Assembly: GCA_020721005.1 (NCBI GenBank)
Contig: DYNP01000021.1
Location: forward strand, 1 to 34,701
Direction of reading: 5' to 3'
Source of the DNA: Thiomargarita sp.
Lineage (GTDB): Bacteria; Pseudomonadota; Gammaproteobacteria; Beggiatoales; Beggiatoaceae
DNA length: 34,701 nt
Shown: positions 4,179 to 6,596 of the stretch, piece after piece
How the letters are laid out: every line of letters starts with the position of its first letter
How positions within the stretch are numbered: position 1 is the first letter of the stretch
The notes under the pieces: generated by a model
Database searches by the model: none
The model's input: only the letters and a program-made list of their open reading frames with translations
What the model was told of the DNA's origin: nothing
Translations under genes and position numbers: made by a program

Positions 4179-5360
4179 ATGTTGACCGGTTTATTGGATT
4201 TACCTGTGTGGGGCTTAATCGTCGTCACTTTGGCGATGACTCATCTGACTATTATTGCAGTAACTGTGTTTTTACATCGCTGCCAAGCGCATCGGGCCTT
4301 GGAACTGCACCCTGGGGTCAGTCATATCCTGCGTTTTTGGTTATGGTTGACTACGGGCATGGTGACCAAGGTTTGGGTAGCCATTCATCGCAAGCATCAT
4401 GCCGCTTGTGAAACCACGGAGGACCCCCACAGTCCACAAATTTTAGGCATTCGTAAAGTACTTTGGCAAGGTGCTGAGCTGTACCAACAGGCTTCTCAAA
4501 AAGGGGAGATTCTGGAAAAATACGGTCGCGGCACTCCGGAAGATTGGCTAGAACGTCAGATATATACTCCTCATCATCTACTGGGAATTACTATTATGTT
4601 GGGAATAGATATCCTGCTATTTGGAGTGATTGGTCCCACCATTTGGGCAGTACAAATGATGTGGATTCCCTTACTAGCCGCTGGGGTGATTAACGGAATT
4701 GGTCATTGGTGGGGTTATCGCAATTATGAGTGTTATGACGCGTCAACTAACATTGTACCTTGGGGTATTTTGATCGGTGGGGAGGAATTACACAACAATC
4801 ACCATACATTTGCCGGTTCGGCCAAACTGTCCTCATTATGGTGGGAATTTGATATTGGTTGGCTGTATATTCGCTTATTAGAAATGGTGGGCTTGGCCAA
4901 AGTGAAGAAGGTGGCACAACAACCGATATTGAGTCAAGTGCAAAGACCCGTGGATATCAGTACCTTAAGAGCGGTGGTTGACCATCGGTTCCAAATCATG
5001 GCTATTTACGCTAAAAAAGTTATTATCCAGGTGCATAAGGAAGAATTGCGTCATACCCAAGGGCATTCCCGAAAACTCCTAAAAAAAGTAGGCAGTTTGC
5101 TGATTCGAGAAGAGTCCTTACTCAAACCCCATGACAAACACAAATTGGCCACAGTACTTGCAGAGAGTCAAGCCCTACAAACAGTGTATCACTATCGCCT
5201 GCAATTACAGTCTCTTTGGCAACAAAGTACAGCCAGTCAAGAATATCTGCTACAATCCTTACAAGAATGGTGTAAACAAGCGGAAGAGACTGGAGTCCAA
5301 GCCTTACAGGAATTTGCCATTACCTTAAGACGATATCAAATATCTCCAAATGAAGTTTAA
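4179..5360 (+). CDS. desA: Membrane fatty acid desaturase, DesA-like delta-9 type
   Basis: 393 residues, close to the length I remember for Pseudomonas DesA. Di-iron membrane desaturases insert a double bond into acyl chains of membrane lipids using O2 and electrons. The three histidine clusters are present: HRCQAH (33-38), HRKHH (70-74) and HNNHH (205-209), plus His176 in INGIGHWWGYRNY. Hydrophobic segments lie at about 8-31, 48-66, 135-157 and 160-178. After about residue 255 comes a long soluble helical tail (to 393) with a pattern like Y-x-R-x-L-x-x-[LI]-W and LQEWCKQAEETGVQALQEFA. The same tail occurs in DesA-type homologues and resembles the C-terminal helical part of ISL3-family transposases, as noted from memory. 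A GGGAG site 8 bases upstream supports the start. It is monocistronic, with a hairpin at 5371-5407. Confidence 0.92.
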   Translation: MLTGLLDLPVWGLIVVTLAMTHLTIIAVTVFLHRCQAHRALELHPGVSHILRFWLWLTTGMVTKVWVAIHRKHHAACETTEDPHSPQILGIRKVLWQGAELYQQASQKGEILEKYGRGTPEDWLERQIYTPHHLLGITIMLGIDILLFGVIGPTIWAVQMMWIPLLAAGVINGIGHWWGYRNYECYDASTNIVPWGILIGGEELHNNHHTFAGSAKLSSLWWEFDIGWLYIRLLEMVGLAKVKKVAQQPILSQVQRPVDISTLRAVVDHRFQIMAIYAKKVIIQVHKEELRHTQGHSRKLLKKVGSLLIREESLLKPHDKHKLATVLAESQALQTVYHYRLQLQSLWQQSTASQEYLLQSLQEWCKQAEETGVQALQEFAITLRRYQISPNEV

Positions 5361-5370
5361 TCGTTCACAA

Positions 5371-5407
5371 GTTGACAATTGTTCATTATCCATCGACAAT
5401 TGTCAAC
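5371..5407. repeat. 11-base perfect inverted repeat after desA
   Basis: GTTGACAATTG (5371-5381) and CAATTGTCAAC (5397-5407) pair perfectly around a 15-base loop. The right half contains a shorter perfect palindrome, GACAATTGTC (5395-5404). There is no T-run, so it may be a Rho-assisted 3' end for desA or a regulator site ahead of the torD-like gene at 5494. Confidence 0.55.
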
Positions 5408-5493: not shown

Positions 5494-6012
5494 ATGCCAC
5501 CCGAAACTCCGTCTTCTGAACAACTGACCCTGCTTATCAATCTGCTGGCTGCCCCTCAAGAAGACAGTTTGGAAATTCTACAGGAACTGATTTCTGAATA
5601 TCCTTGGTTACAGAATCCAGTCCAACAATTGGGTGACTTACCCCTCGATCATTGGCAGGCGGAACACACCCAACTGTTTGTCAGTGGCTACCCAAAAACG
5701 ATGTGCCCTCCCTTTGAATCAGTGTATCGAAGACGCATTATGAACAGTTCCATCTGCGGCGACATCCTGCAATTTTACCATTCTATTGACTTGGAACCCA
5801 CCAATGAATTGCCGCCAGATTACTTGGGGACTTTGCTGGAATGTGCTCTATTTTTGCGGGAACAGACTCCATTTAACGCAGAAGCTTGGCATGCTTTATG
5901 GGCACAACATTTGAATCCTTGGGTACCACAATTTGCCAAAGATTTGCAACAACACAGCCAATTGCAACTTTATCAACAACTTGGACAACAACTGGTTACC
6001 TTATTCCCATGA
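5494..6012 (+). CDS. TorD/DmsD-family (Tat redox-enzyme) chaperone
   Basis: 172 residues, all-helical and cytoplasmic. Family members bind the twin-arginine signal or the apoprotein of molybdopterin oxidoreductases (TMAO, DMSO, sulfite or polysulfide-type enzymes) and guard cofactor loading before export. The signature region is present: AEHTQLFVSGYP (56-67) followed by PPFESVY (72-78), then the acidic, hydrophobic C-terminal half ending in helical repeats. It is a little shorter than TorD (about 199). Its stop overlaps the start of the next gene (ATGA at 6009-6012), so the two proteins are probably made together. No molybdoenzyme is encoded in this window, so the client is unknown. In a sulfur oxidiser a sulfite- or polysulfide-type enzyme would fit, but that is a guess. 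Confidence 0.8.
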   Translation: MPPETPSSEQLTLLINLLAAPQEDSLEILQELISEYPWLQNPVQQLGDLPLDHWQAEHTQLFVSGYPKTMCPPFESVYRRRIMNSSICGDILQFYHSIDLEPTNELPPDYLGTLLECALFLREQTPFNAEAWHALWAQHLNPWVPQFAKDLQQHSQLQLYQQLGQQLVTLFP

Positions 6013-6596
6013 TTTTTAGAAAAAAAACCCCGGTTGCACCTTGGCAATTTCTCGACGAACACCACAATGATGAAACCGTCATGAATCAAGTCGTGCACGT
6101 TTTTGCCCAATGCTACCAAGACCATTTTAAAGAAGAATTGTTGGTCAATCACCAATTCCCTATTGAAATTCGAGCCTTTCGTCATACCGATATTTGGCGC
6201 ATCTTTCTACTTCTCACCCCCTGGATATTGGCCAGAGTATTTTTGCCCAAACTACCGCCTGACATCCCAATGCCCCCTGGCTGGGCACCAGAAGAACGTT
6301 TGCATATTCCCTTTCAAGTCATTGGTCCCGCATTACCTTTGGCTATTCTGGGTGGCAGGGAACAAGCTCATCTGAATTATCACCCGGAATTGGGGCATTA
6401 TTTCATACAACCCTTAATTCAATCCATGACCCAATTTAACATTCCCGATCAAGCCTTTGAAGCGTGGAATGCCGTGATCAGGACTCGAGATGCAGCCATT
6501 CAAGCCCAACAAAAGCGCTGTGATTGGCAGCAGGAAGTGTCGCGCCGGGAATTTTTTGCCAAAGTCATTCGGCAATCTTCGCCCAAAACAGAATGA
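6009..6596 (+). CDS. HybE-like maturation protein (putative partner of the TorD-like chaperone)
   Basis: 195 residues with no signal peptide. The resemblance to HybE-type [NiFe]-hydrogenase assembly chaperones is by pattern. A strand-rich start (PIEIRAFRHTDIWRIFLLLTPW, about 51-72) leads into TPWILARVFLP (70-80, HybE: TPWxLxxVxxP). Then come a proline-rich loop (PDIPMPPGW), an ELGHYFIQPLIQSM segment (127-140), and a closing SRREFF (178-183), where HybE-like proteins also carry an RR-aromatic tail. E. coli HybE is about 162 residues, so this one is longer. An in-frame open stretch continues upstream to 5886 inside the torD-like gene, but the ATG at 6009 overlapping the TorD stop is the natural start. 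No hydrogenase genes are nearby, so it may serve the same redox enzyme as its TorD partner. It could also be a distinct family that only resembles HybE. Confidence 0.6.
   Translation: MIFRKKTPVAPWQFLDEHHNDETVMNQVVHVFAQCYQDHFKEELLVNHQFPIEIRAFRHTDIWRIFLLLTPWILARVFLPKLPPDIPMPPGWAPEERLHIPFQVIGPALPLAILGGREQAHLNYHPELGHYFIQPLIQSMTQFNIPDQAFEAWNAVIRTRDAAIQAQQKRCDWQQEVSRREFFAKVIRQSSPKTE

Follow-up and report, generated by a model that had tools for sequence, protein, structure and literature searches.

A TorD and HybE-like gene pair of Thiomargarita sp. as the probable maturation module of a PhsA/PsrA-like molybdoenzyme

Which enzyme is served by a TorD-like chaperone and a HybE-like protein that are encoded side by side, with no candidate client in their vicinity? 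We asked this question for a gene pair in a stretch of 34,701 nucleotides from Thiomargarita sp. (contig C83), which we call the window. Proteins of the TorD/DmsD family recognise Tat signals and molybdoenzymes in their apo-form. HybE guards hydrogenase-2 in E. coli, to whose precursor it binds; HoxT and HupJ are synonyms within the HybE family. The torD gene (ORF 1, 172 aa) lies at 5494-6012 on the forward strand, and the HybE-like gene (ORF 2, 195 aa) extends on the same strand from the ATG at 6009 to 6596. Stop and start codon overlap in an ATGA at 6009-6012 (forward strand), as can be read directly from the sequence, and this suggests that the two genes are translationally coupled. The initial annotation had described them as translationally fused: the overlap is there, but no fused protein results, and two separate proteins are encoded. 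Close spacing of the two genes is usual, not fixed; with start codons chosen mechanically, 27 of 36 loci have a gap between -14 and +35 nt, and nine fall outside this range. Downstream of the pair there is a convergent gyrB-like gene (the name was read from the sequence), and upstream, on the same strand, a desaturase-like ORF. Whole-genome profile searches for molybdoenzymes (PF00384) and hydrogenase large subunits (PF00374) gave no match on C83; the earlier remark that no cognate enzyme is found nearby was therefore correct.

The family membership of ORF 1 is straightforward. With 63.9 bits against a gathering score of 22.2 (E = 2e-17) it belongs to PF02613, as its description as TorD-like implied. 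It stays far below the equivalog cut-offs of both TorD proper (NF003442, 27.7 versus 132 bits) and DmsD proper (NF008632, 35.8 versus 162 bits), and it is a TorD/DmsD-family chaperone of the kind found in the A-B-C-TorD-HybE gene runs described below. Our TorD profile (A3) matches the PDB entry 2o9x (E = 7e-13) and DmsD structures.

ORF 2 scores 49.8 bits against the PF11939 gathering score of 25 (E = 4.5e-13) and covers positions 3-146 of the 147 in the profile. Since it reaches only 27.2 of the 78.5 bits that the NCBIfam hydrogenase model demands (TIGR03993, hydrog_HybE), we regard it as a divergent member of the HybE family. Alignment of its profile with that of classic HybE by hhalign gave a probability of 98.7% over 162 columns. 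A profile made from 12 diverse relatives (A5) has a single PDB match, which is E. coli HybE (2kc5, E = 0.0015, 64 residues); this entry was recovered neither by the single sequence (phmmer against the PDB returned nothing) nor by the narrower profile A2 (one meaningless weak match). The proposed similarity to HybE has thus held up. An AlphaFold2 model of the protein, calculated from eight rows, has a mean pLDDT of 41.

With the HybE/HoxT/HupJ family (PF11939, TIGR03993, 2kc5) the protein shares a nearly full-length profile match, the LTPW core and the C-terminal RR motif. It differs in its low score with the hydrogenase model, in forming a tree group of its own, and in being linked to a molybdoenzyme rather than to a hydrogenase. 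In a tree of 53 PF11939 proteins, the HybE-like proteins (30 rows, the one from the window included, support 98/92) and the classic ones (21 rows, 100/98) form separate groups, in a tree that has long branches (L125, L171) and a bootstrap that had not settled, and in which the classic and NnrS-linked groups are possibly joined falsely. This tree uses 21 of 39 classic proteins and omits near-copies and fragments (L024, L044, L046, L054, L051, L028 and L030). The same division is seen in the PF11939 scores of the 42 genomes of the order: six genomes have scores of 130-169 bits and 15 have scores of 49-62 bits (one of these with an additional 37-bit fragment). The two profiles that sort HybE-like from classic proteins were built partly from the very rows they sort; the PF11939 scores are independent of this. 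A low PF11939 score is insufficient as a marker of the subfamily, as G275, G161 and G403 score 42-55 bits and are not matched by A2 at E <= 1e-10; the match in G403 contains an in-frame TAG.

A third kind of HybE, with the RR tail present, was seen directly after an NnrS gene (L168, 7000-8598, in G275; L169, 7554-9443, in G161). NnrS was called by a Pfam match (PF05940) in L168 and by eye in L169. Possibly, this kind serves another class of clients.

To find out which enzyme accompanies the pair, we looked at its gene neighbourhood in other genomes. Relatives have a run of five genes in which the pair comes last: A, a molybdoenzyme with a Tat signal; B, a 4Fe-4S protein; C, an NrfD anchor; then TorD and the HybE-like protein. 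Scanning public genomes with the HybE-like protein gave ten loci, namely three from Thiotrichaceae, five from Thiomargarita sp. (one isolate contributing two), one from Candidatus Thiomargarita nelsonii and one from an unplaced gammaproteobacterial MAG. TorD is located directly upstream in nine of them, and the tenth starts inside the HybE-like gene. In three of these loci (L022, L025 and L029) the pair directly follows ABC, with an A of about 930 aa.

Within the order, 15 of the 42 genomes have the HybE-like gene and 14 have A (E <= 1e-100), all 14 being among those 15. The association is strong (Fisher p = 3e-10; counted by genus, 10/10 versus 0/15, p = 3e-7), with p values that are descriptive and overstate independence, because the genomes share ancestry and many are drafts. 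A TorD match stands directly upstream of the HybE-like gene in all 15 carriers (partial in G018, split over contig ends in G007), and the pairing is therefore not due to chance; the 1.5-kb flanks of the six classic HybE genes of the order contain no TorD match. The pair adjoins ABC in six of the 14 genomes (G014, G018 (divergent), G023, G031, G039 and G040) and is on a different contig in the other eight, among them the genome of the window. As for the pair in a genome without either enzyme class, G033 (99% complete) carries it and, through either loss or an assembly gap, has no A ortholog (best match 123 bits), yet other, distant molybdoenzyme matches are present.

Hydrogenases show no such pattern. 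A [NiFe] large subunit (E <= 1e-60, a threshold that omits weaker types such as the HoxH-like match on contig C67 of the window's genome) occurs in 26 of the 42 genomes, that is, in 6/15 with the HybE-like gene versus 20/27 without it, and PF11939 matches are absent from 14 of the 26. Within the order, strong NiFe-hydrogenase matches do not follow the distribution of the HybE-like gene; of the two enzyme classes whose co-occurrence with the pair was in question, it is the A enzyme that the pair tracks.

The five-gene run is not restricted to the order. In a sample of 369 genomes from the class, the HybE-like gene (E <= 1e-10) was found in six and A (E <= 1e-60) in seven, with both in six; in the seventh A genome (G247) the 4.5-kb contig ends inside TorD. 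The run A-B-C-TorD-HybE is present in all four class members outside the order (L077-L080); in L079, 400 nt separate the HybE-like gene from the gene that precedes it. In a sample of 398 genomes from the phylum, which was entered via A alone, A occurs in 16, of which 15 are outside the class; in 13 of these 15, matches to all five genes of the run follow one another (in G550, A is cut by a contig end), and contig ends cut the other two. The class and phylum searches with A scored about two first-look candidates per genome and may thus have overlooked some A genes. Two genomes, G124 and G280, have a classic HybE in addition to the HybE-like protein of the operon.

In the genome of the window, an orthologous ABC is located on another contig, C67 (L018). 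Its A is 77-79% identical to A of L022, L025 and L029, and behind it we found no remnant of TorD or HybE (best E = 0.03). The best NCBIfam model among those listed for A is PhsA (NF012032), with 314.6 bits against an equivalog cut-off of 694; for this reason we call A PhsA/PsrA-like and not a member of PhsA. Among PDB entries, 2vpw matches A best (E = 5e-68), and A has a cysteine aligned to chain residue 173 of that structure (counted by hand), the position of the Cys ligand to Mo in PsrA. A search of plasmid records with A gave 687 records, all below 60% identity; where a gene name was given among those listed, it was phsA.

The signals for export are found on A. The Tat consensus is S/T-R-R-x-F-L-K, and A on C67 bears the motif SRRTFLK; a pattern search found (S/T)RRxF(L/M/I) or a close variant at the N-terminus of A in 26 of 28 loci, the two exceptions being L138, which is cut before the start, and L132, in which the frame starts too far upstream for the 90-residue limit of the pattern. 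B begins at its first cluster motif and has no visible export signal, and C matches NrfD (PF03916). The enzyme resembles PsrABC/PhsABC (Thermus, 2vpw) in its A-B-C build, its Tat signal, the Cys at the Mo-ligand position and the NrfD anchor; unlike it, A has 934 residues here versus 765 in 2vpw_A, scores far under the PhsA cut-off, and is accompanied by TorD and the HybE-like protein. Judging from these sequence features and from the gene neighbourhood in relatives, the likely client is a molybdoenzyme of the PhsA/PsrA-like type that has a 4Fe-4S subunit and is anchored by NrfD; it may act on a sulfur compound such as thiosulfate or polysulfide. A polysulfide-type enzyme had been suggested as a possible client at the outset, and the enzyme on C67, together with its counterparts beside the pair in relatives, supports this suggestion.

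In a tree of TorD proteins, the TorD of the window is nearest to the TorDs that lie inside ABC operons, at a support of 87/76, which is moderate and below the starred level, and the two other TorDs of the same genome are far away on long branches. Near-copies and fragments were left out of this tree (L024, L044, L046, L054, L051, L028 and L040). One TorD of the genome, distant from that of the window, is an orphan of about 257 aa on contig C79 (L020, 12703-13476, reverse strand); perhaps it serves the DmsA-like enzyme on C81, which has no matched TorD next to it.

We consider it probable that the pair is a dedicated maturation module of the Tat-exported, membrane-anchored PhsA/PsrA-like molybdoenzyme (A, B and C), and that it is detached from ABC in the genome of the window. 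That the pair matures one redox enzyme had been put forward before, and both its tracking of A and the five-gene runs of relatives speak for it. Co-location, co-occurrence, orthology and family membership are observed directly, and from them we infer which partners bind and in what sequence the steps follow. As in other members of the TorD/DmsD family, TorD would bind apo-A and its Tat signal, keeping A ready for cofactor insertion. Because B has no visible signal, assembly of A with B is expected in the cytoplasm, followed by a joint exit like that of the two subunits of a hydrogenase, so that B would hitchhike out with A. Given such a joint exit, we propose cofactor loading and signal protection of A as the task of TorD, and a checkpoint on A-B assembly as that of the HybE-like protein, which may block the export of A until B has docked, by analogy with HybE guarding hydrogenase-2 in E. 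coli. Against the module stand G033, which has the pair without A, the separate contigs in eight of the 14 genomes, and DmsABC and related enzymes, which manage with TorD/DmsD alone. The initial annotation saw in the pair a meeting of hydrogenase and molybdoenzyme maturation; this finds no support, and the HybE subfamily looks, from its sequences and their genomic company, re-assigned from the hydrogenase to the molybdoenzyme.

How could a HybE protein hold back export? Nearly all HybE-family proteins that we examined, HybE-like as well as classic, end in (S/T)RRx(F/L)(F/L), which resembles the signal of the client. EVSRREFF is invariant at the C-terminus of the HybE-like proteins in alignment A2, and the codons for SRREFF (residues 178-183) are found at 6540-6557 of the window on the forward strand; the classic tail is similar, for example SRRDLLRG, and hhalign aligns the two kinds of tail with each other. 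The pattern RRx(FLMI)(FLMIHV) occurs in the last 45 residues of 34/34 HybE-like and 36/39 classic proteins, compared with 8/693 other ORFs and 2.7% of shuffles, in counts that include near-copies and are thus not independent. The HybE-like rows counted are those whose locus includes a stop codon, and two of the 34 are NnrS-linked; L030, which is cut by a contig end, was set aside. The three classic proteins that the pattern missed are L139 (which ends in NRRDVLRG), L170 (no such tail) and L171 (none).

A speculative and, in our view, rather unlikely interpretation is that HybE C-termini are decoy Tat signals: the tail would fill the signal-peptide site of a partner, either the TorD of the adjacent gene or TatBC, until it is displaced by a true precursor, which bears the motif as well; this would amount to a general export checkpoint by signal mimicry for [NiFe]-hydrogenases and for the sulfur molybdoenzyme. 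In titles and the beginnings of abstracts, a search outside of which most subscription papers lie, we found no description of a Tat-like motif at the C-terminus of HybE; it may be in print elsewhere.

L171 (7798-8319, reverse strand, in G050) is a HybE-family protein that has neither the TPW core nor the C-terminal RR motif. By our own reading of the sequence, its gene heads an apparent soluble HoxFUYH operon. A HybE without a tail in the context of a soluble, non-exported hydrogenase of the Hox type agrees with what the decoy interpretation predicts, as a single case.

Other roles of the pair can be weighed against the same data. The HybE-like protein might act on the membrane side, helping the NrfD subunit C to fold or insert, and not on A or B. 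A subunit of the NrfD family, HybB, is also part of hydrogenase-2 in E. coli, the third kind of HybE adjoins the membrane protein NnrS, and PF11939 is lacking in 14 of the 26 order genomes that have a strong NiFe match, counted over all anchor types together. On the other hand, many classic HybE proteins serve hydrogenases whose anchor is not NrfD, and the C-terminal Tat-like motif points to the signal-peptide machinery; we therefore consider a membrane-side role improbable.

Alternatively, the pair could be a shared hub of redox maturation that serves the PhsA-like enzyme, two DmsA-like enzymes (C132, C81), a type-II/NarG-like one (C126) and a hydrogenase. The genome of the window does have five PF00384 matches (one of them NuoG by context) for three PF02613 matches, and the pair is unlinked from ABC there. 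Yet the presence of the pair follows one enzyme, G020 and G041 contain other molybdoenzyme matches but neither an A ortholog nor a PF11939 protein, and the DmsA-like enzyme on C132 has a TorD of its own. Such a hub thus has little probability. Finally, that the HybE-like protein has remained a chaperone of hydrogenases, serving the [NiFe]-hydrogenase on C133 next to an incidental TorD, might be expected from the name of the family, from its being the sole PF11939 match of a genome that matches the NiFe large subunit strongly and from such strong matches in 6/15 HybE-like genomes, but is very improbable given that 9/15 lack any NiFe large-subunit match as strong as E <= 1e-60, that 14/26 NiFe genomes are without PF11939, that G124 and G280 keep a separate classic HybE, and that the HybE-like gene closes the ABC run in three samples; on the co-occurrence in the order genomes we rejected this reading.

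Parts of the dedicated module have been described before. TorD/DmsD chaperones (the NarJ subfamily) were linked to nrfD-hybA-bisC operons by Bay et al. 2015 (PMC4464133), which likewise combine such a chaperone with a molybdoenzyme, a ferredoxin and NrfD; unlike in our runs, no HybE partner is mentioned in the main text, where HybE appears once, as a separate chaperone of hydrogenase-2. For Candidatus Thiomargarita nelsonii, a "Polysulfide reductase-like operon (phsABC)" was reported (PMC4853749), which, judged by its description, is possibly of the same enzyme family; the main text of that paper contains neither "TorD" nor "chaperone". Further, psr/phs genes are known from large sulfur bacteria (PMC5421297), another molybdoenzyme cluster contains TorD (PMC12998232), and HybE is listed among hydrogenase neighbours (PMC12727194). 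In the parts of these five papers that we could consult, HybE was not found combined with TorD and an ABC operon.

The HybE family is thus apparently not exclusive to hydrogenases, as one subfamily travels with a molybdenum enzyme of sulfur bacteria and beyond. Because of this subfamily, a PF11939 match in such genomes should not be taken as a sign of hydrogenase maturation. For the production of a PhsA/PsrA-like enzyme, TorD and the HybE-like protein are likely the accessory genes to co-express. The shared C-terminal Tat-like motif offers a concrete idea of how HybE chaperones might restrain export, and it bears on hydrogenases as well.

We add some observations on the surroundings of these genes. 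Outside the class, an ankyrin-repeat protein (Pfam) is encoded 3' of A-B-C-TorD-HybE in L132 (7109-8296, forward strand) and L138 (2292-3278, reverse strand), and by eye similar C-termini are seen in L124 and L126-L129; several loci outside the class have a regulator-like gene flanking the operon at its opposite end. In the window, a 393-aa ORF at 4179-5360 (forward strand) is a chimera: residues 10-213 form a fatty-acid desaturase domain, which continues in frame into a fragment of a DDE_Tnp_ISL3 transposase (residues 270-387) that an insertion sequence may have left behind. About 90 nt 5' of torD, at 5372-5406, there is a palindrome (TTGACAATTG...CAATTGTCAA) which occurs as a single copy in the window and could be an operator, a terminator or a small mobile remnant.
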